DNA of 37,926 bases from positions 1 through 37,926 of the forward strand of contig CAMCHO010000023.1 in assembly GCA_945874455.1 (NCBI GenBank), read 5' to 3'. This document shows positions 2,259 through 36,414 of the stretch, one piece after another (positions within the stretch are counted from its first letter, which is position 1; each line of letters starts with the position of its first letter). Position numbers and translations under genes: made by a program. Source of the stretch: Opitutus sp. GAS368 (lineage in GTDB: Bacteria; Verrucomicrobiota; Verrucomicrobiia; Opitutales; Opitutaceae). A model generated the notes under the pieces. That model was not told the origin of the DNA, searched no databases, and was given only the letters and a program-made list of their open reading frames with translations.

Positions 2259-2286
2259 GTAGCCGCGAGCGCCAGCGAGTGGTCCG
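2259..2286 (+). repeat. Dispersed repeat, single copy of the GTAGCCGCGAGCG family
   Basis: This copy begins GTAGCCGCGAGCGCCAGCGA and continues to GTGGTCCG. The same 24-28 base core occurs at 11306, at 12016 (with an inverted partner ending at 12071) and four times in tandem from 35849. All copies are intergenic. It lies between a terminator and the start of the second DUF1800 gene. Confidence 0.85.
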
Positions 2287-7257: not shown

Positions 7258-10200
7258 ATGAAATTCCTGCTCCGCCTCGTGCCGCACCACGCCCTCGCGC
7301 TTCTGCTCCTCCTCGCGTTGGCCTCACCCCTCTGCGCCGCGGACTACTTCGTCGCGACGAACGGCAACGATAACAACAACGGCCTCACCGCGGCTCGACC
7401 GTTCCGAAATGTCGCGCGCGCGGCGCTTCTGGCCACCGCTCCGGGCGACACCGTGACGGTCGCGGCCGGGACCTACACCGAGACCGTGTCGCTGCTCCGT
7501 TCCGGTTCGCCCACCGCCCCCATCACGTTTACTTCGCCCACCCGCGGTGCCGCCAAAATCGTCGGCCAAGTCCGCATCTTGGGCTCCAATATCACGCTCT
7601 CCGGCTTCGACATTACGAATCGCAACGGCAGCGGGGTCATTATTTCCAGCGATCGCGTGCGTATCCTGAAAAACGATATCCATGACTGCTCGGGCCACGG
7701 CATCAGCGCCTTTTCTTTCGATTACCTCACCATCGAAGGCAACCGACTCTTCCGCAACGGCCAGCAGAACTTCTCGCAAGCGAGCGGCATCTCCCTCTAC
7801 CAACCGATCGCCCTCGATCAGGCCCCCGGCTTCCATATCATCGTTCGCGGCAACGAATCCTTCGAAAATGACAGCGTCGTCAGCACCCAGGCGGGCGGCA
7901 CCAATTTCCGTGTCGGTATCGGCATCCAACTCGATGACTTCCGCAACACCCTCGAGGGCTCCACCGCCGGAGTCTATCGCCCCGCCACCCTCATCGAAAA
8001 CAACCTGGTCTATGGTAATGTCGGCCGCGCCATCGTCATCAGCCTCAGCGACAACATCACCGTCCGCCACAACACCGCCTACCACAACCTGCCGCTCCGC
8101 AATACGAACAACACTCTCGGCGACTTCAGCTGCCAAGACACCGACAGTGTCCGCTGGGTCAACAACATCCTCGTGACCCGCGCCGCGTCGTTGAATGCGA
8201 TCTTCGACGCCCGCAACACCAACTCCACGTGGGACTACAATGTCATTGGGGGTGGCTCCCTCTCCATCGCCGCCGATTCCACGACCGTCCTCGGCTCGCA
8301 CAATTACCTCCTCGACCCCCGTCTCATCGCCCCGGATACATATAATTTCCGTCCCGGACCCGGCAGTATTGCGATCGACAACGGCAGCTCCGCGTTCGCC
8401 GCTCCGAGCGATTTTGAAGGCACCGCCCGCCCGATCGCTTCCGGCTTCGATATCGGTGCCTTCGAAACCAAACCGGACCTCACCGCACCCTCGGGCATCG
8501 CACCCACCCTCGCCACCCAGCCCATCAGCCAGACGCTCCTCCCTGGTGGCATCATCACCCTTTCCGTTGCACCCAGCGGCTCCCCGCCGCTCACCTACCA
8601 ATGGTCGCGGAACGGTGCCGCCATCAGTGGTGCCACCGCCGCCGCCTTTACCCTCTCACCGCTCCAGTCTGCCGATGCCGGGGTTTACGACGTCAAGGTA
8701 ACCAATCCCGCCGGTACCATCACCAGCAATCCCGCCACGATCGCGGTCGCCGTCACGCCGACATTCACCTTTCGCAACCCCACCCCCGCCCTCGGCACGC
8801 TCTTCTCCGTCGGCTTCGGTGCCGGCAAGTTCCTCGCCGTCGGCATCGGTGGCCGCATCGTCACCTCGCCCGATGCCGTGAATTGGTCCCTCGCCGCGAC
8901 GTTGCCCACCGCGGCTGCGCCCACCACGGCTCTGCGCGGCATTGCGCACAACGGCAGTCTCTGGGTCGCCGTCGGTGACAGCGGTGTGATTTTCACCTCA
9001 CCCGACACCGTCGTCTGGACCCCGCGCACCTCGCCAACGACGCAAACCCTCCTTGCGGCCACCTACGCCAACAACCAATTCCTCGCCTGCGGCAACTCCG
9101 GCACCATCCTCGTTTCCCCTGATGGGATTAACTGGAGCCTCCGCCCGCCACTCACGCCCGTCGTTACTCAGCAGCTCACCAGCATCACCGGCCGCCTCGG
9201 CGCCTACGTCGCCGTCGGCCAGACGGGCACGATCCTCACCTCGCCCGACAGCATTGCCTGGACCCGCATCACTCTCCCCGGAGTTACTCAAAGTTTCTAC
9301 AACGTATCCTTGCTCACGGGCCAGTTCATCGCCGTCGGCGACACCGGCCGCATTTATTCCTCGGCCGATGGCATCGAATGGACGAGTCGCACGACCTCCA
9401 CGATCACCAACAATCTCCGCAGCGTCACCCACAACGGCTCGCAGTTCATCATCACCACCGACGGCGAGCGCATCGTCGTCACCGCCGATTTCGCCACCTT
9501 CATCAGCCGCACCCTCTCCTTTAACCTGAACACCGCCCGTCTTGGCAGCACGTCGGCCAACGGCCTCACCGTCGCGGTCGGCCAAGGCGGGGAAATCGCC
9601 ACCACGCCCGACGGCCTCGCCTGGACCCAACGCGGCGGCAACGGGACCATGGTGCAGCTCAACGGTGTGACCTTCCTGAATACGCAGTGGTTCGCCGTCG
9701 GCAACAGCACCGGCATCCTGACTTCTCCCGACGCCGTCACGTGGATGCGCCTCCCGATCCCTGCCGCCAACGGGCTCAACGCGATCGGCTACGGTGCCGG
9801 GCGCTACGTCGCGATTGGTGATCAAGGTTACATCACCACGTCGCTCGACGCTGCCACTTGGGTTGGCAATACGACCGCTTCCGGCACGACCCAGTCCCTT
9901 CGCGGTATCGCCTACGCCAACGGTCGTTGGGTCGTCGTCGGCTTTGGTGGCGTCATTCGCACTTCCACCAACGGCACCACGTGGACCACCGTCGCATCCC
10001 CCGTCACCACAAATTTCAACGCCCTCACCACGTTCGGCAGCACCTTCATCGCCATCGGCGATAGCGGCGTCATCCGGACCTCCACCGATGGCACCACGTG
10101 GACAGCTGCCACTTCCGGCACCACCCAAGCCCTACGCGGCATCTGCGTCGATCGCGGCACGGCCTACATCGTCGGCAGCAACCGGACGATCCTCGCATCC

Positions 10201-11277
10201 ACCGACGCCCAGACGTGGACCACGCGCACCGCCCCCGCTGCCAACAACAGCACCTATCGCGGCATCACTGCGGCGAACGGTGGCCTCTTCATCGTCGGCG
10301 AGCAGGGCGTCGCGCTCTTCTCCCCAGACAGTGTCACGTGGAGCTACCTGCCGAGCCTCGCCTACCGCGAAACCCTCTACGCCGTCGCGTCCAACGGCCT
10401 TTCCACCGTCATCGTCGCATCCGGCGGCACGATCCTCCAGGCCGGCAATCCCACCGTCCTGCCTTCGCGCCTCGTCAACGTCGCCACCCGCGGCCTCGTG
10501 CAGCCCGGCGGAAACCTCATTCCCGGCTTCGTCCTCCGTGGCACCGGCAGCAAACGAGTCGTGGTCCGCGCCGTCGGCCCCACCCTCTCCGCCTTCGGTC
10601 TCTCCGGCCTCAGCGATCTCAAACTCGATGTCGTCAACCAACAGACCCAGGCCACTGCCGCTAGCAACGACGACTGGGGCGGGTCCTCGCCGCTCTCCAC
10701 CGCCTTCGCGTCCCTCGGTGCCTTCCCGTTGACCGCCTCCTCGAAAGACGCCGCCGTCCAGACGACGCTTCCTGTCAACCAGGGCGGCTACAGCGTTAAG
10801 GTTGCCGCCAGCGGCACCGGCACCACCGGCGTTGCCCTCGCCGAAGTCTATGATGCCGACAGCGATGACTCTCCCGTCCGCGTCATTAACGTCTCCACCC
10901 TCGGCTTCGTCGGCACCGGCGCCAACGTCCTTACCCCCGGCTTCGTCATCCGCGGCACCGTGCCGAAAATCGTGCTCATCCGCGCCATCGGCCCCGGTCT
11001 CGCCCAACTCGGCGTCGGCGGTCTGCTCGCCGACCCTCAATTCTCCGTCTTCCTAGCCGACTCCGACGTCGCCATCGCCACGAGCAACGACTGGGGCGGC
11101 ACCGCCGCCCTCAAGGCCGCCTTCACTACCGCCGGCGCTTTCAACCTCGCCGCCGACAACAGCAAAGATGCCGCCATCGTCCTCACCCTGCCCCCCGGCG
11201 GCTACACCGTCGTGACCTCCGGCGTCGCGAATACCACGGGCACCGCCCTCGTGGAAGTTTACGACCTCGACCCGTGA
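7258..11277 (+). CDS. Large secreted multidomain protein: beta-helix, Ig-like, 14 propeller repeats, surface repeats
   Basis: 1339 residues. A Sec signal peptide spans about 1-27 (apolar LLLLLALA core, cleavage near LCA). Residues about 28-400 look like a right-handed parallel beta-helix (opening YFVATNGNDNNNG, then NTI/NNL-type repeats with many Asn). About 414-500 is an Ig-like domain (TYQWSRNGAAISG, DAGVYDVKV). About 501-1061 holds roughly 14 repeats of the form AVGxxGxIxTSxDGxxW, about 40 residues each, of the BNR/Ycf48-like propeller kind; 14 would fit two seven-bladed propellers. About 1062-1339 are two surface repeats (LVNVATRG, INVSTLG) with RAVGPTLSAFGLSGL, the same module as in the DUF1800 protein at 2445. 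No enzymatic residues can be assigned; the beta-helix suggests carbohydrate binding or cleavage. No transmembrane anchor is seen beyond the signal, so the protein is secreted or surface-bound. Confidence 0.85.
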   Translation: MKFLLRLVPHHALALLLLLALASPLCAADYFVATNGNDNNNGLTAARPFRNVARAALLATAPGDTVTVAAGTYTETVSLLRSGSPTAPITFTSPTRGAAKIVGQVRILGSNITLSGFDITNRNGSGVIISSDRVRILKNDIHDCSGHGISAFSFDYLTIEGNRLFRNGQQNFSQASGISLYQPIALDQAPGFHIIVRGNESFENDSVVSTQAGGTNFRVGIGIQLDDFRNTLEGSTAGVYRPATLIENNLVYGNVGRAIVISLSDNITVRHNTAYHNLPLRNTNNTLGDFSCQDTDSVRWVNNILVTRAASLNAIFDARNTNSTWDYNVIGGGSLSIAADSTTVLGSHNYLLDPRLIAPDTYNFRPGPGSIAIDNGSSAFAAPSDFEGTARPIASGFDIGAFETKPDLTAPSGIAPTLATQPISQTLLPGGIITLSVAPSGSPPLTYQWSRNGAAISGATAAAFTLSPLQSADAGVYDVKVTNPAGTITSNPATIAVAVTPTFTFRNPTPALGTLFSVGFGAGKFLAVGIGGRIVTSPDAVNWSLAATLPTAAAPTTALRGIAHNGSLWVAVGDSGVIFTSPDTVVWTPRTSPTTQTLLAATYANNQFLACGNSGTILVSPDGINWSLRPPLTPVVTQQLTSITGRLGAYVAVGQTGTILTSPDSIAWTRITLPGVTQSFYNVSLLTGQFIAVGDTGRIYSSADGIEWTSRTTSTITNNLRSVTHNGSQFIITTDGERIVVTADFATFISRTLSFNLNTARLGSTSANGLTVAVGQGGEIATTPDGLAWTQRGGNGTMVQLNGVTFLNTQWFAVGNSTGILTSPDAVTWMRLPIPAANGLNAIGYGAGRYVAIGDQGYITTSLDAATWVGNTTASGTTQSLRGIAYANGRWVVVGFGGVIRTSTNGTTWTTVASPVTTNFNALTTFGSTFIAIGDSGVIRTSTDGTTWTAATSGTTQALRGICVDRGTAYIVGSNRTILASTDAQTWTTRTAPAANNSTYRGITAANGGLFIVGEQGVALFSPDSVTWSYLPSLAYRETLYAVASNGLSTVIVASGGTILQAGNPTVLPSRLVNVATRGLVQPGGNLIPGFVLRGTGSKRVVVRAVGPTLSAFGLSGLSDLKLDVVNQQTQATAASNDDWGGSSPLSTAFASLGAFPLTASSKDAAVQTTLPVNQGGYSVKVAASGTGTTGVALAEVYDADSDDSPVRVINVSTLGFVGTGANVLTPGFVIRGTVPKIVLIRAIGPGLAQLGVGGLLADPQFSVFLADSDVAIATSNDWGGTAALKAAFTTAGAFNLAADNSKDAAIVLTLPPGGYTVVTSGVANTTGTALVEVYDLDP

Positions 11278-11412: not shown

Positions 11413-11955
11413 ATGAAAGCCCACCGCCTTACCTTCACGCTCTGCGCTCTCATCCTCGCGCTCCTCACGTGGTTTTTCTGGCCCACCTCGCCCTCCCGCG
11501 CTCCCTCGCCGTCTCAAATTTCAAATCCTCAATCTCAAATCCCTCCCCTCGCCACCCCGCCTCCCCCCTCCGCTCCCCGAACTCCGCCGCCCGCGCCCCT
11601 CCCCGCCGAACGCAGCACCCTCGCCGATCTGCTCAACGCCCCGTCCAAGAATATCCGTGACGACCTGCGCATCGTGAGCGCAATCCTCGAAACCTTTCGC
11701 ACCAACTTCCCCCGCACCGGCAATCCCGTCGGCACCAACTCCGAAATCACCGCAGTCTTGGCCGGCCATAACAAACTTCAGCTCGCCCTCATCCCCGCCG
11801 ATCACCCCGCGATCAATCGCTCCACCGGCGAACTCCTCGACCGCTGGGGCACCCCGTTTTTCTTCCACGCCGAGAGCGGCTCGCGCATGGAAATCCGCAG
11901 CGCCGGCCCCGACAAAAAACATCACACTGCCGACGACGAAGCCTTCATCCCTTAG
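11413..11955 (+). CDS. Small membrane-anchored protein with GspG-like C-terminal motif
   Basis: 180 residues. One apolar segment at about 7-24 (ending TWFFWP) should act as an uncleaved anchor or signal. A Pro/Ser-rich linker follows (about 25-65), partly encoded by an AT-rich repeat (11514-11545) unlike the GC-rich surroundings. The C-terminal half has DRWGTPFFFHA and then MEIRSAGPDKKHHTADDE, a pattern resembling the end of type II secretion pseudopilin-like (GspG) proteins, in which a WGTP segment is followed by a SxGPDxxxxTxDD loop that can bind calcium. There is no prepilin peptidase cleavage site, so it is not itself a pilin. The gene stands alone between the large secreted protein and a repeat-bearing gap. 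Function unknown. Confidence 0.65.
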   Translation: MKAHRLTFTLCALILALLTWFFWPTSPSRAPSPSQISNPQSQIPPLATPPPPSAPRTPPPAPLPAERSTLADLLNAPSKNIRDDLRIVSAILETFRTNFPRTGNPVGTNSEITAVLAGHNKLQLALIPADHPAINRSTGELLDRWGTPFFFHAESGSRMEIRSAGPDKKHHTADDEAFIP

Positions 11956-12015
11956 CGCCGCCGCTCCTCACTCCTCAGCTCAATCGCCCAAAAGATTCAG
12001 ACTGTGATCTGCCGG

Positions 12016-12071
12016 GTAGCCGCGAGCGCCAGCCAGTGGCGATCCGTCCACTCGCTGGTGTTCGCGGCTAC
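12016..12071. repeat. Inverted pair of the GTAGCCGCGAGCG repeat
   Basis: A forward copy (12016-12039) and a reverse-complement copy (12048-12071) are separated by 8 bases. The arms are 24 bases each and pair almost fully, giving a long hairpin. The gap (11956-12178) lies between the convergent ends of the small + strand gene and the - strand DEAD-box gene, a typical place for REP-like paired palindromes. No T-run follows on either strand. Confidence 0.85.
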
Positions 12072-12178
12072 CGAAAAGTCCAGCGTTCAAACGACGTTGG
12101 CATCTGGACACCTCCCCGCAGCACTCGTCACAGCTGCCGCGCACCGCGCTCGGTCAGCGGACGGCAGGAGTGACTGCG

Positions 12179-13513
12179 TCAGCGCCCCACGCGCCGCTGG
12201 GTCGGGATGCGCGGAGTCAGCGGAAAATATTCCTGCACCTCGATTCGGACCGGCGCGTCCGCCACGAGGGGCCGGGTCGCGGACCCGCCGGCGGCCTCCC
12301 GCAGGCGGTCCTTCTTGCTCTTGCGTTTTCCTTTCACGCCGCCCGTGGAAGCGACCGCCGGCATAGCCGTGTGCAACGGTTCAAATCCAGCGATCTGCTC
12401 CCGCGGGAGGTTGCAGCGATTACGTTTTTCGATGAGCCGGAAATGAGCGTCTGTCTCCACACTGATGAAACTCACGGCCACCCCGCTCTCACCGGCCCGG
12501 CCGGTGCGGCCAATCCGATGTTCGTAATCCACCGGCGAACGCGGCAGATCGTAATTCACCACGACGGGGAGCCCCGCGATGTCGAGACCGCGCGCGGCAA
12601 CATCCGTTGCCACCAAAACACGGATACGCGACGCTTTGAACTCAGCGAGCGCCGCCGTCCGCGCCCCTTGGCTGAGCTCACCATGCAGCGCCGCGGCCTC
12701 GATCCCGGCGCGGCGCAGTTTCTCAGCGACGTGCTCTGTCGCATATTTGGTGGCGACGAACACCAAAACGCGGGTCCACGCGTGCAGCTCGATCAGGTTG
12801 CGCAGGAGCTGCGTGCGCTGCGGAGCGTCGACCTCGATCGCCCGCTGCGTAATATCCGGAGCGTCAGCGGGTGCCGTCGGGATCTCAATCCGCGTTGGCT
12901 CCCGCAAAAGACTCTCGGCCAGCTGCCAGACCGCCGGGGGAAACGTAGCCGAAAAAAACAGGGTCTGCCGGCGAGTGGGCAGCAGCGCAAAGATCCGCGT
13001 GAGCTCATCCGCGAAGCCCAGCGCGAAGAGACGATCAGCCTCGTCCAACACGAGCGCCGAGACCGCAGAGAGCGAGACGGCGTGGTGCGCGATCAAATCC
13101 AGCAACCGACCAGGCGTGGCCACAATGATATCCGCACCGCCGCCGAGTGCGATCATCTGCGGGTTGATGGACACCCCACCATAGACGACGAGCGTCTTCA
13201 ACGCTGGTGCGGGCAGATAGCGACCATAGTCGCGAAACGCGTCGCCGACCTGAGCTGCGAGTTCGCGGGTCGGAACCAAAACAAGCGCACGCACGAACCG
13301 CACCCGCTCCCGCGGTGTGCCCGCGAGGAGTTGCAGGAGCGGCAAGGCAAAGGCCGCAGTCTTGCCCGAGCCGGTCTGCGCCGAGGCCCAGACATCGCCA
13401 CCTCGGAGCACGGCGGGGATCGCGGCGGCCTGAATCGGCGTGGCTTCGGTGTACGCACGCTCGGCGATCGCCCGGAGCAGCGCCGCCGAAAGGCCGAGAG
13501 AGGAAAATGACAT
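12179..13513 (-). CDS. rhlE: DEAD-box ATP-dependent RNA helicase, RhlE-like
   Basis: 444 residues. All helicase motifs are visible: Q motif (TPIQ, 25-28), Walker A (AQTGSGKT, 45-52, Lys51), PTRELAAQ (81-88), TPGR (133-136), DEAD (157-160), SAT (188-190), VATDVAARGLD (301-311) and HRIGRTGRAG (332-341). A basic tail (KGKRKSKKDR near 395-404) follows, as common in RhlE-type proteins that act in ribosome assembly or RNA turnover. It unwinds short RNA duplexes using ATP in the cytoplasm. It is the last gene of a same-strand run lpxC-fabZ, lpxA, glutathione peroxidase, helicase, with 60 bases to the upstream gene. No clear Shine-Dalgarno site. The subfamily (RhlE rather than CsdA or DbpA) is inferred from length and tail only. 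Confidence 0.9.
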   Translation of the reverse strand: MSFSSLGLSAALLRAIAERAYTEATPIQAAAIPAVLRGGDVWASAQTGSGKTAAFALPLLQLLAGTPRERVRFVRALVLVPTRELAAQVGDAFRDYGRYLPAPALKTLVVYGGVSINPQMIALGGGADIIVATPGRLLDLIAHHAVSLSAVSALVLDEADRLFALGFADELTRIFALLPTRRQTLFFSATFPPAVWQLAESLLREPTRIEIPTAPADAPDITQRAIEVDAPQRTQLLRNLIELHAWTRVLVFVATKYATEHVAEKLRRAGIEAAALHGELSQGARTAALAEFKASRIRVLVATDVAARGLDIAGLPVVVNYDLPRSPVDYEHRIGRTGRAGESGVAVSFISVETDAHFRLIEKRNRCNLPREQIAGFEPLHTAMPAVASTGGVKGKRKSKKDRLREAAGGSATRPLVADAPVRIEVQEYFPLTPRIPTQRRVGR

Positions 13514-23574: not shown

Positions 23575-25107
23575 TCAGGACTTCGACTCGTAGATATAAC
23601 CTTCTTCACCATGATCACTGAGGTCGAGACCTTCTTGTTCGGCCTCCACCGAAGGACGAAGTCCTACGACGGCCTTCACGATGAGGGCGATGATCACGGT
23701 CGCGACGGACGCCACGACCAACGTGATGCCGATCGCCTTGATTTGCTCAATCCAGAGCGTCTTGCCGACGACGTCCTTGAGATTCGTACTCAGGTTGGCA
23801 TTGACGGCAGGCGTGGCAAAAACACCGGCCAACAACGCACCCAACGTGCCGCCCACTGCATGGACGCCGAAGGTATCAAGGGCGTCATCGTAGCCAAACA
23901 TCGCTTTGAGCTTCGTCACCGCGAAGAACGGAATCGCCCCAGCAAGGATGCCGACCCACATGGCCGAGGTGCTGTCGATAAATCCGCAAGCGGGCGTCAC
24001 CACGACGAGACCGGAGACGGCACCCGAGCAGAGCCCGAGGACGCTGGCCTTCTTGCGGGTGAGGTATTCGAGGAGGGCCCAGACTGAGGCCGCGACACCG
24101 GTCGCGAGCGTGGTGGTGGTAAAGGCGTTGGCGGCGACACCATCGGCGGCGGCGGCAGAGCCAGCATTAAACCCATACCAGCCGACCCAGAGCATTCCGG
24201 TACCGACCATGCAGAGGACGAGGCTGTGCGGAAGCATCGGAGTTTTTCCGAAGCCAAGGCGCTTACCCACGAGCATGCAGAGAATCAGCGCTGACCACCC
24301 AGAGGACATGTGCACCACGGTGCCGCCAGCGAAGTCGATGGCTTTGATGGCCGCGCCGGCGTTCCACACGCCGTTCATGAAGCCATTGACGCCCCACACC
24401 ATGTGCGCGAGCGGGAAGTAGACCAAAAACATCCAGCCGGTCATGAAGAGAATCATGGCGGAGAATTTCATGCGCTCGGCGATCGCACCCACGATCAGGG
24501 CGGGCGTGATAATCGCGAACATCATCTGATACATCGCGAATACATTCTGCGAAACCCAGAAGGCGTAGTCCGTGTTCGGCGCGCTATCGACGCCTTTCAA
24601 AAAGAAGAATTCCGAGCCACCGAGGAACGGGCTGTTGAAGCTCTTCCCGAAAACCAAGCTGTAACCAAAAGCCCACCACAAGATAGTGACGAGGCCGGCC
24701 AAGCTCAGACACTGCGCCATGACCGACAGGACGTTCTTCGTGCGGACCAAGCCGCCGTAAAAGAGGGCCAGACCGGGCAGCGTCATGAAAAGCACGAGCG
24801 CCGCGCTCGTCATCATCCATGCGTTGTGACCGGGACCAGCGACACCCACGGAAGGAGTCGTCAGTCCAGCCGGGATGGTCAGGTTGCCGTCCTTATCTTT
24901 CGGTCCGACTTTTAACGCCGCCGAAGGGTCGCCGTTGCCGATATAGGCTTCGAGACCGGCGATGCGCTGCTCCAGCGTCGGAGCCGGAGGCGGCGGAGGC
25001 GTAGCGGCTGCGGGAGCAGCAGCTTGGGCAAAAGCAGACACGGTGGCCGCGAGCGCCAGACATGCCGCGAAGAGCGATCTGAAGGGTTTGATTCGAAGTG
25101 TATTCAT
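23575..25107 (-). CDS. amtB: Ammonium transporter Amt, copy 1
   Basis: 510 residues. Trimeric inner-membrane channel for ammonium/ammonia. A long N-terminal signal peptide and Ala/Pro linker (1-40) are followed by a predicted periplasmic coiled segment (LEQRIAGLEAYI) before the 11 transmembrane helices, which start near GHNAWMMTSAALVLF. The twin pore histidines are seen in FPLAHMVWG and DTFGVHAVGG; the family signature DFAGGTVVHMSSG is intact. The cytoplasmic tail ends EAEQEGLDLSDHGEEGYIY, where PII regulation would act. A sigma-54-like -24/-12 element lies just upstream and a small hairpin (25108-25125) touches the ATG. Followed after 32 bases by a PII gene. The extra N-terminal region of about 90 residues before helix 1 is longer than in E. 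coli AmtB. Confidence 0.95.
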   Translation of the reverse strand: MNTLRIKPFRSLFAACLALAATVSAFAQAAAPAAATPPPPPAPTLEQRIAGLEAYIGNGDPSAALKVGPKDKDGNLTIPAGLTTPSVGVAGPGHNAWMMTSAALVLFMTLPGLALFYGGLVRTKNVLSVMAQCLSLAGLVTILWWAFGYSLVFGKSFNSPFLGGSEFFFLKGVDSAPNTDYAFWVSQNVFAMYQMMFAIITPALIVGAIAERMKFSAMILFMTGWMFLVYFPLAHMVWGVNGFMNGVWNAGAAIKAIDFAGGTVVHMSSGWSALILCMLVGKRLGFGKTPMLPHSLVLCMVGTGMLWVGWYGFNAGSAAAADGVAANAFTTTTLATGVAASVWALLEYLTRKKASVLGLCSGAVSGLVVVTPACGFIDSTSAMWVGILAGAIPFFAVTKLKAMFGYDDALDTFGVHAVGGTLGALLAGVFATPAVNANLSTNLKDVVGKTLWIEQIKAIGITLVVASVATVIIALIVKAVVGLRPSVEAEQEGLDLSDHGEEGYIYESKS

Positions 25108-32420: not shown

Positions 32421-33464
32421 ATGTCTCACCCCTGTATGGCTCAACGCGCTATCCTCCTCCTCAACCTCGGTTCGCCCGATTCCACTTCCGTCCCAGACGT
32501 CAAACGCTACCTGCGCGAATTCCTCGGCGATGAGCGCGTCATCGACCGACCTGGCTCGGCCTTCATCCGGAGTGTGTTGGTCAACGGCGTTATTATACCG
32601 TTTCGCGCCAAAAATTCCGCGCACGCCTACTCCACCATTTGGACCGACGCTGGCTCCCCGCTAATCGTCACGAGCAAGCTCACCCAGGCCGCCCTCCAAA
32701 AACGCCTGAGCTCCCCGGTCGACCTCGCCATGAACTATGGCAATCCCTCGATCCCCGACGCGGTCCGCCGCCTCATCGCGGCGGGCGTCAACGAAGTCCT
32801 GCTCTTCCCGCAATACCCGCACTACGCGATGTCGAGCTGGGAAACTGTCGTGGTCAAAGTCCGCCGGGTCGCCGCCGAGCTCGCGCCCACCATGAAGGTC
32901 GCCTGCGCCCAGCCGTTCTACGCGGAACCCGACTACATCGACGCCCTCGTCGCCAGCGCCCGCCCGTATCTGGCGCAGCCCCACGATCACCTGATGTTCA
33001 GTTACCACAGCATTCCGAAACGCCATCTCACCAAAGGCGACTCCTCGAAGGCCCATTGCCTTGTCACCCCCGATTGTTGCAACACCTGTTCGCCCGCCCA
33101 CGCGACCTGCTACAAGGCCCAGGTCACCCGCACCACCCAGCTCTTCGCCCAACGCGCCGGACTCGACCCCGCCCGCTGGTCCATCGCGTTTCAATCACGC
33201 ATCGTCGGTGAGCCGTGGCTCACTCCATATACCGACTTCGAATTAAAACGCCTCGCGGGCGAGGGTCGCAAACGCATGCTCGTCATGACCCCGGCCTTCG
33301 TAACCGACTGCCTCGAGACCCTCGAAGAAATCCGCGTCCGCGGCGCCGAAGAATTTGAAGAAGCCGGCGGCGAATCGTTCACCGCGATTCCGTGCCTCAA
33401 CGATCATCCGGCCTACATCGATTTCCTCGCCAAGCGCTGCGGTGCATGGCTGGATGCCAGCTAA
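32421..33464 (+). CDS. hemH: Ferrochelatase with internal cysteine cluster
   Basis: 347 residues (ATG at 32421; ATG at 32436 is also possible). Inserts iron into porphyrin in the last step of heme synthesis. AILLLNLGSPD opens the protein, the catalytic His196 lies in SYHSIP and the partner Glu299 in DCLETLEE. Just after the catalytic His is a cysteine-rich stretch, Cys213, 219, 220, 223 and 230 (C-x5-CC-x2-C-x6-C), which could bind a [2Fe-2S] cluster; such internal clusters are known from some bacterial ferrochelatases, for example in Myxococcus. It lies 21 bases after the Sua5-type gene, and its last 11 bases overlap the likely start of the histidine kinase gene, so the three form one operon. 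Confidence 0.94.
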   Translation: MSHPCMAQRAILLLNLGSPDSTSVPDVKRYLREFLGDERVIDRPGSAFIRSVLVNGVIIPFRAKNSAHAYSTIWTDAGSPLIVTSKLTQAALQKRLSSPVDLAMNYGNPSIPDAVRRLIAAGVNEVLLFPQYPHYAMSSWETVVVKVRRVAAELAPTMKVACAQPFYAEPDYIDALVASARPYLAQPHDHLMFSYHSIPKRHLTKGDSSKAHCLVTPDCCNTCSPAHATCYKAQVTRTTQLFAQRAGLDPARWSIAFQSRIVGEPWLTPYTDFELKRLAGEGRKRMLVMTPAFVTDCLETLEEIRVRGAEEFEEAGGESFTAIPCLNDHPAYIDFLAKRCGAWLDAS

Positions 33465-35826
33465 CTTGAGTGAGGCCTCCACTAGTCGTAACACCCAGAC
33501 TCTCGCGACGCCACCCGTCACCGCCTCTGGTGCCGACGACACCACCTCGGGCTTCGCACTGCTCGCCGACCAAGGCACCACGGGCTTTTTCGACCTTCAC
33601 CTCTCGATCGACCGGGTGCTCTTTTCCCCTGCGTGGAAAAAAATCGTGGGCTACGCCGACGCCGAATTGCCCGACACGCTCGCGACCTGGCATCAACTCA
33701 TCCACCCCGAAGACTCCTCCGCCGCACCCGACAAAATCGGCAAGAAGTCCACCGTCGGCACCCGCCCCTTCAACGTCGAGTTTCGCATGCAGCATCGGCG
33801 TGGCCATTGGGTTTGGGTCCAATGCAGCGGTCTTCAGGTCATAACCGCAGCCGGCGAACTCGCCCGCGTCGTGGGTATCCATCTCGACATCACCGATCGT
33901 AAACAGCTCGAGGAGGAAGCCCTCGCTAACGAGGCCCGGCTCCAAGCCCTCAGCAACGGCGGACCGCTCGCCGCCTTCGAACTCGATTTCGCCGGCAAGA
34001 TTTTCTGGTTCTCCCCAGCCTGGGAAAAACTCCTCGGCTACGAGGAGGGCGAGCTCGCCCCCGAGGCCGTATCCTTCACCGCCGCACTCCCGCCCGCAGC
34101 GGCGACCAGTGGACTCGAAGCTTGGCTGCTCGCCCGCGCTCCCGGCCACAGCTCCTTCACAGAAGCCGTCTGCCTCCGCAGTAAGCACGGCCACCCCGTG
34201 CCCGTGCTCTTCGGCGCGCACCGCAGCCTCACCCGCAAACGCGACCTCGCGCGGGTCGTCGGCTTCGCCGTCGCCCTGCCCTCCGACCTCTCGGCCGCCA
34301 CCTCGCCCGACGATCACACGCTCCCCGCCGCCCTCGCCACCGCCGCGTTGGGCGCCCTCGCCGAAGCCGTCCTGATCACCGACGCCCGCGGAAAAATCAT
34401 TTTTGCCAACGCCGCCTCCACCCCGCTGCTCCGCCTCGCCCCCGACGCCGTGCGCGGCCAGTCCCTCGGCGCCATCTTTCAACTCGTCAACCGCCAGAGC
34501 AACCGTCCCGGCGACGATCCCGTCGAGCGCGCGTTGTCGGCCGATCAGCCGCTTCCCCTCATCAGCGCCGACGCCCTGATGTCACCGAACGAAGGCGAAC
34601 CGCCGACCCCCATCGTCTGGACGGCGCGCGCGGCCTTCGGCTCCGACGGTAAACCTCACGGCGTCGTCCTTATTTTCCGCGACCCCGAGCAGATGACCCT
34701 CACGCCCGAAGAACTCGTCAAAGCCAACCGCTGGGAATCCCTCAGTCTCCTCGCCGGCGGCATCGCCCACGATTTCAACAATCTCCTCACTACTGTCCTC
34801 GGCGCGGTTTCCCTCGGCAAAGACCACCGCGACACCACCGCTCTCGGCGACGCCGAGCACGCGTGCCTCAAGGCAAAGGACCTCGCGAAACAGCTCCTCT
34901 CGTTCGCCCAAGGCGGCGTGGGCACGCACAACATCGTCGCGTCCCACGAAATTCTCGCCGACTCGCTCAAGATCGCCGCCGCCGCGTCGAATGCCGAGGT
35001 TGCGATTGATGTGCCCGAGGGCGTCGCGCCGGTCCTGGTCGACAAGCCGCAAATTCTCCAAGTCTTCCAAAACCTCATCGTCAACGCCCTGGAGGCCATG
35101 CCACCGGAACCCCATCGGCCCCGCCTGCAAATCCGCGCCGCCAACATTACCCTCACCGACGGCCAAGTCGCCTCGCTCGCCGCCGGCGATTACGTCGAGT
35201 TCGCGGTGCGCGACAACGGCAGCGGCATCAAACCCGAGCACGTCGAAAAAATCTTCGATCCGTTTTTCACGACAAAAAAACACGGCACGGGCCTCGGTCT
35301 CGCCACGGTCCTGTCCATCGTTCGCAAACACGGTGGCCAACTCGAACTCGCCACCGAGGTCGGCGTCGGCACCGCCTTCACCGTCTACCTGCCAAAAGCC
35401 GAACAATTCCTCGCAGTGCCCGCCCGTCGCGCCTCGTCGCCGCGCTTCGGCACGGGTCGCGTCCTCTTCATGGACGACGATCCGAAAATCTCCGCGCTCA
35501 CCGCCACGATGCTCACGCGCCTCGACTATAACTTCGATCTGGCGAAAAACGGCGAAGACGCTCTCGCCCTCTACAAGCGGTATCTGAACGTCGGACGCCC
35601 CTACGACGCCGTCATCATGGACCTTACGGTAATCGGAGGCATGAGCGGCGAAGCGTGCTTCCAAGCGCTCAAGGAAATAGACCCCGAAGTCCGCGCGATT
35701 CTCTCCAGCGGCTACGACCACGACGAGACGGCGCGCAAGTACCTCGACCTAGGCTTCTGCGGCTACCTGACGAAACCCTACCGCGCGACCGATCTCGGCA
35801 AAGTCCTCAAAGCCGTCCTCGGCTAA
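33454..35826 (+). CDS. Soluble hybrid histidine kinase: three PAS domains, kinase core, receiver
   Basis: 790 residues from the ATG at 33454, which overlaps the hemH stop by 11 bases; a TTG at 33466 is an alternative. No transmembrane segment is visible, so it senses in the cytoplasm. PAS 1 at about 40-150 (FFDLHL, HPEDS, HLDITDRK), PAS 2 at about 165-275 (AAFELDFAGKIFWFSPAWEKL) and PAS 3 at about 295-415 (AVLITDARGKIIFANA). The phosphoacceptor His439 lies in GGIAHDFNNLL; ATP-binding N-box Asn544 (NALEAM), G1 DNGSG (587-591), FDPFFTT (601-607) and G2 GTGLGL (611-616). C-terminal receiver (about 668-790) with acidic Asp674-676, phosphoacceptor Asp723, Ser751 and Lys774. No DNA-binding output domain, so a separate partner is needed. 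Co-transcription with ferrochelatase hints at heme or redox sensing, an inference from position only. Confidence 0.92.
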   Translation: MPANLSEASTSRNTQTLATPPVTASGADDTTSGFALLADQGTTGFFDLHLSIDRVLFSPAWKKIVGYADAELPDTLATWHQLIHPEDSSAAPDKIGKKSTVGTRPFNVEFRMQHRRGHWVWVQCSGLQVITAAGELARVVGIHLDITDRKQLEEEALANEARLQALSNGGPLAAFELDFAGKIFWFSPAWEKLLGYEEGELAPEAVSFTAALPPAAATSGLEAWLLARAPGHSSFTEAVCLRSKHGHPVPVLFGAHRSLTRKRDLARVVGFAVALPSDLSAATSPDDHTLPAALATAALGALAEAVLITDARGKIIFANAASTPLLRLAPDAVRGQSLGAIFQLVNRQSNRPGDDPVERALSADQPLPLISADALMSPNEGEPPTPIVWTARAAFGSDGKPHGVVLIFRDPEQMTLTPEELVKANRWESLSLLAGGIAHDFNNLLTTVLGAVSLGKDHRDTTALGDAEHACLKAKDLAKQLLSFAQGGVGTHNIVASHEILADSLKIAAAASNAEVAIDVPEGVAPVLVDKPQILQVFQNLIVNALEAMPPEPHRPRLQIRAANITLTDGQVASLAAGDYVEFAVRDNGSGIKPEHVEKIFDPFFTTKKHGTGLGLATVLSIVRKHGGQLELATEVGVGTAFTVYLPKAEQFLAVPARRASSPRFGTGRVLFMDDDPKISALTATMLTRLDYNFDLAKNGEDALALYKRYLNVGRPYDAVIMDLTVIGGMSGEACFQALKEIDPEVRAILSSGYDHDETARKYLDLGFCGYLTKPYRATDLGKVLKAVLG

Positions 35827-35848: not shown

Positions 35849-35988
35849 GTAGCCGCGAGCGCCAGCGAGTGGTCCGCATCCGCCGGTAGCCGCGAGCGCC
35901 AGCGAGTGATCCGCATCCGCACGTAGCCGCGAGCGCCAGCGAGTGGTCCGCATCCCCACGTAGCCGCGAGCGCCAGCGAGTGGTCCGC
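35849..35988 (+). repeat. Tandem array, four copies of a 37-base repeat of the GTAGCCGCGAGCG family
   Basis: Copies start at 35849, 35886, 35923 and 35960, an exact 37-base period. Each begins GTAGCCGCGAGCGCCAGCGA, then GTG(G/A)TCCGC, then a short variable joint. The core is the same as the single copies at 2259 and 11306 and the inverted pair at 12016-12071. No spacers of unique sequence exist, so it is not a CRISPR array. It fills most of the gap between the histidine kinase and the SulP remnant. Confidence 0.92.
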
Positions 35989-36048: not shown

Positions 36049-36414
36049 ATGAAGACTCCCGCCCTTTCCATTACCTCCTCAGTCATTTCGATCTTAAGAA
36101 TAAAACCGCGGATCTTCTATTGCCTGAGTTTGGGTTACTCTCGACCCCAGGCGATCGCCGACGCGCTCTCCGGCATCACCGTCGGCTTGATCGCTCTCCC
36201 CGTCGCACTTGCCCTCGGAGTCGCGAGTATACCGATTTACCTCGCCACCCCCTTCCTCGCTCCGGCCATCGGTATTTTCACAGCGATCATCGGCGGGCTC
36301 ATTGTTTCTCTCCTTGGAGGCAGCCGTGTGCAAGAACGCCGAGGCCAGCGCCACAGCCGTGCCCACTTCGACGAAGCCCTCGTCCGCGCCCGCGAAATCC
36401 TCGCGACGCCCTGA
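36049..36414 (+). pseudogene. SulP anion transporter remnant with internal deletion
   Basis: An intact frame of 121 residues. Residues about 25-95 match the start of SulP sulfate/anion permeases: the DALSGITVGLIALPVALALGVAS segment is helix 1, and IGIFTAIIGGLIVSLLGGSRVQ is the next conserved block. A full SulP would go on with IGGPTGAF and 400-500 more residues. Here GGSRVQ is joined at once to ERRGQRHSRAHFDEALVRAREIL, which looks like the very end of a SulP STAS domain. So the middle of the gene, about four fifths of it, seems to have been lost with the frame kept. It can hardly work as a transporter. Next to a tandem repeat array, which may have helped the deletion. The C-terminal match is weaker than the N-terminal one. 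Confidence 0.65.

Follow-up and report, generated by a model that had tools for sequence, protein, structure and literature searches.

A GTAG-tagged REP hairpin family in Opitutus that probably takes two forms, oriented repeats behind genes and the core of a 125-bp MITE-like element

The window, by which we mean the whole analysed stretch of 37,926 nucleotides, is part of the genome of Opitutus sp. GAS368, whose draft assembly (5.07 Mb in 333 contigs) is 95.5% complete. Judged from one protein, the nearest public relatives are MAGs assigned to Opitutaceae/Opitutae. A preliminary description of the window had drawn attention to a GC-rich core in seven forward copies and one reverse copy, all intergenic and mostly after gene ends, and our core search located all eight. 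The 20-base core is exact at 2259, 35849, 35886, 35923 and 35960, has one mismatch at each of 11306 and 12016, and lies inverted at 12052-12071, on the minus strand, with two mismatches; 100 shuffles of the window gave on average 0 matches. A further match at 25043, with three mismatches and inside a called gene, was not counted as a member. Genes were called with a home-made codon-score model, the first version of which missed the helicase gene described below. The members are indeed intergenic, and the tail-less ones at 2259, 11306 and 35849 are located behind genes of the plus strand, after their 3' ends. The features are as follows.

2259..2282, plus strand: tail-less REP with the exact core, 113 bp past the stop of gene 706-2145 (DUF1501); orthologue in public contig L066.
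11306..11329, plus strand: tail-less REP with one mismatch, 28 bp past the stop of the large gene 7258-11277; orthologue in L066.
11975..11977, no strand: left flanking triplet TCA (TNA target position), which differs from the right triplet.
11978..12102, plus strand: REP-cored MITE-like element of 125 bp, consisting of left tail, REP, spacer, inverted REP and right tail.
12016..12039, plus strand: left REP of this element, one mismatch.
12048..12071, minus strand: right, inverted REP of this element, two mismatches.
12103..12105, no strand: right flanking triplet TCT (degenerate TNA position), TCT in orthologues too.
35849..35988, plus strand: head-to-tail array of four REPs with period 37, the last unit partial, 22 bp past the stop of the PAS/histidine-kinase/receiver gene 33442-35826.

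Two parts of the preliminary description required adjustment. It had reported an exact 37-base tandem array, and the period is exactly 37, but the units are identical in the 20-base core only; outside it they vary, and the fourth is incomplete. The inverted copy at 12071 is likewise present; however, together with the copy at 12016 it forms the centre of one 125-bp element and the two are not loose copies. This element lies between convergent genes, 11413-11955 on the plus strand and a DEAD-box helicase gene (12179-13513) on the minus strand, and the same insertion is found in two genomes of the genus (G273 and G279) and in public contig L067. In the labels used here G000 is the own genome, G188 and G273-G279 are of the genus, and G114 and G196 are of other genera.

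A genome-wide, REP-like family had been proposed, with the remark that chance-level counts or copies confined to the window would tell against it. The host genome was found to hold 254 core copies (117 + 137) at up to three mismatches, against 5 for a reversed-pattern control, and the core is present in all nine genus genomes (14 to 282 copies each at up to two mismatches, with 0 control matches). Among 273 genomes sampled from the order, five have the core at up to one mismatch, the host genome counted. The family is mostly intergenic, with four of 54 core clusters inside called genes. With the GTAG hairpin and the stop-proximal polarity described below, these counts bear the proposal out.

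In structure the core is a hairpin of the REP type, marked by GTAG and by a bulge in the stem. Its consensus, GTAG CCGC GA GC GCCA GC GA GTGG, folds into a 4-bp stem, a tandem GA/GA bulge, 2 bp and a 4-nt loop. The sample used to examine the hairpin required GT at positions 1-2 and no more than six mismatches; 21 of 343 contexts were dropped (no GT at those positions, or seven mismatches), leaving 322 instances with 99 distinct sequences. Position 3 was A in 274 of the 322 and position 4 was G in 320. Over the 99 distinct variants a standard pair occupied 88% of stem cells, compared with 21-45% when the partner was slid, and in most variants the second stem pair was C-G or G-C and the third G-T or G-C. 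The E. coli TnpA-REP requires GTAG and a bulge within the stem, according to the sections of PMC8266576 drawn on here. Rfam returned 0 matches in the window at gathering scores.

When folds were compared with those of shuffled sequences, a single REP was weak as RNA (z -1.3) and as DNA folded no better than shuffles (z +0.85). The REP pair of the window was far better as RNA (z -7.7), the whole window MITE reached z -5.2 as DNA, and the 37-base array as RNA was no better than shuffles (z -0.2). The RNA folding energy was -8.2 kcal/mol for the GTAG strand and -4.5 kcal/mol for its complement.

Our principal interpretation is that this is probably one GTAG-tagged REP hairpin family in two forms, namely oriented tail-less REPs and the inverted-pair core of the 125-bp MITE. 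The examined loci, which were among the matches listed for the core or the simple-REP pattern, contained 135 distinct clusters, 56 tail-less and 79 with tails, after clusters less than 420 bp from a locus end had been dropped and with orthologous loci of different genomes counted separately. A single orientation was found in 54 of the 56 tail-less clusters (mixed in 2), and a mixed orientation in 67 of the 79 with tails, a count which degenerate inverted partners escape. One such partner was observed in G196, where at one of three places read (L332) a REP appears to be accompanied by a degenerate inverted partner without MITE tails; inverted pairs are thus not confined to MITEs.

The position of the 54 one-orientation tail-less clusters relative to genes was strongly polar. 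A same-strand gene end lay no more than 150 bp upstream of 39 of them, an opposite-strand gene end lay downstream of 1, both applied to 1 and neither to 13 (39 vs 1: binomial p 7e-11, which is optimistic because orthologues were counted separately, the gene model was a simple codon-score one and the loci came only from matches listed). In these copies, whether single or head-to-tail, GTAG is on the coding strand after stop codons. The same polarity test applied to full MITEs gave 20 vs 13, with 2 both and 53 neither (p 0.30). By genome, tail-less polarity was 11 vs 0 in G114 (1 undecided) and 7 vs 0 in G000 (7 undecided), a small sample. A looser first count, which used a less strict gene model and counted array units singly, gave for G000 8 vs 1 (9 neither) among solitary copies and 23 vs 9 (69 neither) among grouped copies including MITEs, for G114 11 vs 0 (2 both, 1 neither), and for simple-REP loci 28 vs 0 (1 both, 5 neither); the cluster count is preferred.

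The genome of G114 consists of one contig, and at all 14 places read there (of 16 matches) the REPs were solitary and, by eye, tail-less, some of them touching the stop codon itself. The REP is therefore not simply a decayed MITE. A view of the tail-less REPs as decayed remnants, in which the MITE alone would explain the family, could draw on the shared core sequence and on the occurrence of partial MITEs with one tail, but we regard it as highly improbable in light of the G114 copies, of a polarity that tail-less clusters have (39 vs 1) and MITEs do not (20 vs 13), and of the mixed orientation in just 2 of 56 tail-less clusters.

With replichore limits placed at 2.2 and 4.48 Mb, which are approximate and were set with the REP strands in view, 14 of 14 REPs in G114 are oriented as would be expected for the lagging-strand template. 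Of the genes called in a sample of forty 12-kb stretches, 170 of 243 are co-oriented with the fork, and if the REPs merely followed genes the chance of 14 in 14 would be 0.7^14 = 0.007. The limits were placed according to the GC skew of G114, which changes between 2.08 and 2.14 Mb and between 4.42 and 4.51 Mb; in the stretches at 2.14, 2.26, 2.74, 3.10 and 4.36 Mb it opposes the assigned side. IS608 and ISDra2 act on the lagging-strand template, as stated in the part of PMC6006769 used here, and in view of that habit the orientation of the REPs makes a Y1-type origin of the tail-less form plausible.

A different explanation of the tail-less copies is that they are immobile, each being a selected 3'-end RNA element (a hairpin that stabilises the mRNA or resembles a terminator) whose copies arose through recombination. 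Their stop-proximal position and coding-strand polarity would suit such a role, as would the G-U wobble and stem exchanges that preserve the hairpin on the coding strand and the poorer folding of the reverse strand as RNA. However, a single copy folds weakly, there is no T-run after the window array, array length and presence vary among relatives, and all 14 REPs in G114 follow the replichore when about 30% of called genes do not (0.007), which an RNA role alone does not predict. On balance we consider this explanation somewhat unlikely. Under the two-form interpretation, the tail-less REPs would be single-strand hairpin elements placed past stop codons with the GTAG strand as the coding strand; they most likely arrived via a RAYT-like single-strand mechanism and may now act as transcribed 3' hairpins. 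The hairpin, the polarity and the lineage-specific array length are the observed steps of this scheme.

The array at 35849 varies considerably among relatives. The locus has four 38-bp units in G277 and one unit in G273 and in G276, and no unit was present in the stretch seen of G188, G274, G275 and G278; G279 carries the same unit in eight full copies at one contig end and in five at another. Relatives without a REP at the locus are too diverged there for a clean breakpoint. The spacers are nearly identical within each genome, and a CRISPR array was rejected for 35849-35988 since its spacers are not unique. The array is best read as one tail-less REP that has expanded head to tail, locally and in a lineage-specific manner, with homogenisation inside each genome. 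Slippage or unequal recombination may be the route by which some tail-less REPs multiply locally into such arrays, the 37-bp array being one local expansion of this kind. Beyond the array, the small gene 36049-36414 resembles the two ends of a longer gene in relatives. Query positions 1434 and 1435 are adjacent in the window and about 1.4 kb apart in G188, G275 and G278, so that about 1.4 kb has apparently been lost inside this gene. Its letters resemble the start of a SulP-type permease; a Pfam search gave no match.

Many core copies are inverted pairs whose starts are 36 bp apart and whose tails are conserved. A search of the own genome with the window pair gave 95 listed matches, at least 27 of them full length with that of the window included, a lower bound because 40 of 144 candidates were scored. 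Among the same 95 matches, with the same 40 candidates scored, no tail without REP sequence was found. In the examined loci there were 105 A tails (0 without a REP), 105 B tails (1 without) and 19 C tails (2 without), counts that are biased in that most loci were retrieved through a REP or a MITE; the own-genome pair search is less biased.

The alignment of the MITE comprised 88 full copies (G000 26, G277 40, G276 2, G188 20); L135, which is among the 27 full copies of the own genome, had dropped out of it. The length was exactly 125 bp in 78 of the 88, the ends were TAYCAA...TTGGTA with the remainder of the outer arms diverged, and the copies were most alike in G277 (median identity 95%). The elements are short and non-coding, with terminal inverted repeats and a uniform length, as is usual for MITEs; a search for the element on plasmids gave no match. 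In G188, GTAG was present in 0 of 20 B-side REPs (18 had GTCG) and in 11 of 20 A-side REPs, and, if the requirements of the E. coli enzyme apply, the B-side REP at least would not be a normal RAYT substrate. An abutting stop codon was rejected as the target rule of the MITE, the distances to called stops being variable, and an integron attC identity was rejected as the ends do not fit the core-site consensus.

Other repeats were observed in association with these elements. A second MITE type, of 92 bp and with a single REP, has perfect TGA, TCA and TTA duplications at three places, and a related longer single-REP element at a fourth place has unequal triplets. Arrays of 65-bp head-to-tail units (left tail and REP), together with a 97-bp array built from the single-REP MITE, were seen at L039:877-1268, L040:1293-1549 and L041:715-1007, and so partial MITEs also multiply in tandem. 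A further REP variant, GTAGCTACGAGCGTGAGCGAGTGG, has its own tail and is attached to the 125-bp MITE, at its left end, at L039:836, L040:1576, L041:4776 and L044:2351. Another repeat, interspersed, some 210-220 bp long and containing an inverted CTCTGCGGTG motif, lies near or abuts MITE ends at L042:4929-5148, L044:2401-3302, L040:1629-1848 and L041:4523-4742, with four tandem copies in L044.

A TNA triplet is present on both flanks of 63 of the 88 aligned MITEs. In 40 of these 63 the left triplet equals the right one, compared with a permutation expectation of 15.5 (p 5e-5, the lowest value that 20,000 permutations allow), in a test whose MITE limits were read off the same alignment; a control triplet just outside the flanks matched in 2 of 88. 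The identical triplets were distributed as 8/16 in G000, which alone is not significant (p 0.06), 22/32 in G277, 10/14 in G188 and 0/1 in G276, and the verdict of a target duplication thus depends on the 62 copies added from G277, G276 and G188. Unequal triplets flank 23 of the 63, and the window copy has TCA/TCT.

We also searched the genus with the joined flanks of 8 of the 27 full own-genome insertions. One site was empty in G279 and G273, which read GGC-TGA-GGCC where the own genome reads GGC-TGA-element-CGA-GGCC, and this comparison is a 3-bp duplication with one later change. Four of the remaining queries were filled in G279 and three were without a clear result, so that a clean empty site was obtained for 1 of 8. 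The common ends and length, the covarying TNA flanks and the one site empty in two relatives were all observed, and the 125-bp inverted-pair elements look like MITEs with 3-bp target duplications.

Insertion by Y1 (RAYT)/HUH enzymes is not expected to duplicate the target. The 125-bp elements depart from this in their 3-bp TNA duplication, and they have the TNA target and 3-bp duplication that characterise IS5/IS1031 mobilisation. An autonomous parent with matching ends was not found at 15 DDE_Tnp_1 (PF01609) loci in the four genomes searched, and for this reason we infer the class of the MITE enzyme, which would be a DDE transposase, perhaps of IS5/IS1031 type.

The preliminary description had suggested mobilisation in trans, perhaps, by a transposase encoded outside the window and had looked to a RAYT-type gene flanked by the core. 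RAYT-like Y1 genes do exist elsewhere in the genome: four PF01797 genes all match the NCBIfam RAYT model, one of them above the cut-off, and Y1 genes are present in all nine genus genomes (39 in total). However, a scan of 31 of the 39 genus Y1 genes, which covered about 1.5 kb on each side where the contig allowed, in draft genomes that may lack contigs, revealed no gene bracketed by the core (a REPtron). The four genes of the own genome have no core copy beside them; two scanned genes have one about 0.7 and 1.4 kb away and neither is bracketed. A core-bracketed RAYT could be hidden in the missing part of the 95.5% complete draft or among the 8 G273 genes beyond the scan. RAYT mobility of the tail-less form is graded as unproven, and RAYT mobilisation of the inverted-pair form as unlikely.

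Several observations were made on the RAYT-like genes themselves. Two of those in the own genome (C166 and C29) have other palindromes around them. At L036:2102-3011 and L038:2394-3656 the frames of two RAYT-like genes extend, at the gene ends, across REP-like palindromes of unrelated sequence, so that the repeats are translated. The genus also has another recurrent palindrome of the GTAG type, GTAGGAGCCCGCTTGCGGGCGATTC, which was seen in the right flank of L121 and in many genus contigs (query 429-524). A RAYT of about 340 aa was considered as the trans-acting enzyme, as its presence at first tracked total copies in the nine genomes, and was rejected when the count of simple REPs did not conform: two such genes are present in G274, which has 0 simple copies, and none in G276, which has 10.

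Could the whole family nevertheless be an ordinary REP/REPIN system served by a RAYT in trans, the pairs being REPINs and the tails old insertion context copied along? The GTAG and bulged hairpin are as in the RAYT substrates described in PMC8266576, in the sections drawn on, and the Y1 genes of 9/9 genus genomes, the NCBIfam RAYT matches of the own four, the lagging-strand-template orientation in G114 and the tail-less inverted pair in G196 would all be at home in such a system. The unit of 125 bp with its common ends, covarying TNA triplets and empty site would not, nor would the 31 of 39 Y1 genes scanned with none core-bracketed; the B-side REPs of G188, with GTAG in 0 of 20 and GTCG in 18, also speak against it, though the A side retains GTAG in 11 of 20. 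We judge an all-RAYT origin improbable. In the two-form interpretation the inverted REP pair would, in the genus, lie at the centre of a 125-bp MITE, non-autonomous and bounded by TAYCAA...TTGGTA, which takes TNA as its target and duplicates these 3 bp, a route that would spread REPs without requiring a RAYT.

REPs behind genes, arrays of REPs and, in Opitutus, GTAG REPs are already known, and Di Nocera et al. 2013 (PMC3733652) report a high enrichment of GTAG repeats in O. terrae. In the sections of that paper used here, the GTAG REPs resemble ours in having GTAG at one end and a short hairpin, in being mostly downstream of ORFs, in forming head-to-tail clusters with flanking DNA, and in that GTAG sometimes supplies the stop codon. 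In contrast to them, most mixed-orientation clusters here have MITE tails and tail-less copies are fixed in orientation. The likeness to the O. terrae families is one of description, and the present sequence may be one of theirs. The GTAG-15 family of A. variabilis is also comparable, in that its REP dimers lie regularly within a longer palindrome that is absent without REPs; however, the palindrome is called a target in the sections of PMC3733652 consulted, which describe no target duplication or empty site, and in the present family it is apparently the entire unit that moves, with duplication of TNA.

In REPIN/RAYT systems, as presented in the parts of Bertels and Rainey 2011 (PMC3116915) drawn on, an inverted REP pair is likewise the mobile unit and singlets are common, but the pair described here has long tails, ends like those of a transposon and a 3-bp target duplication, and the Y1 genes scanned included no RAYT linked to it. 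The IS1031 subgroup of the IS5 family has a TNA target preference and 3-bp direct repeats, in the portion of PMC12016507 used, as does the MITE here, whereas the example end given there (GAACCTG...) differs from the MITE ends. REP-cored MITEs with target duplications, an orientation split between REPs and MITEs, and the present family were not found in the open-licence literature.

The spread of REPs is regarded, in the parts of the literature drawn on, as poorly understood, with RAYT as the usual candidate. A split between oriented, stop-proximal copies and transposon-borne copies would offer two routes that are separable by target duplications and orientation. In its wider form, to which we give an even chance, the idea is that genus-wide the REPs are the core of DDE-type MITEs, most REPIN-like pairs being made by cut-and-paste and not by RAYT, with solitary REPs as a separate population that is strictly on the coding strand and, in one complete genome, on the lagging-strand template. 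Inverted REP pairs that have been counted as REPINs may then be MITEs mistaken for RAYT products. If the wider idea is true, REP abundance per genome would be the sum of two unrelated mobility systems.
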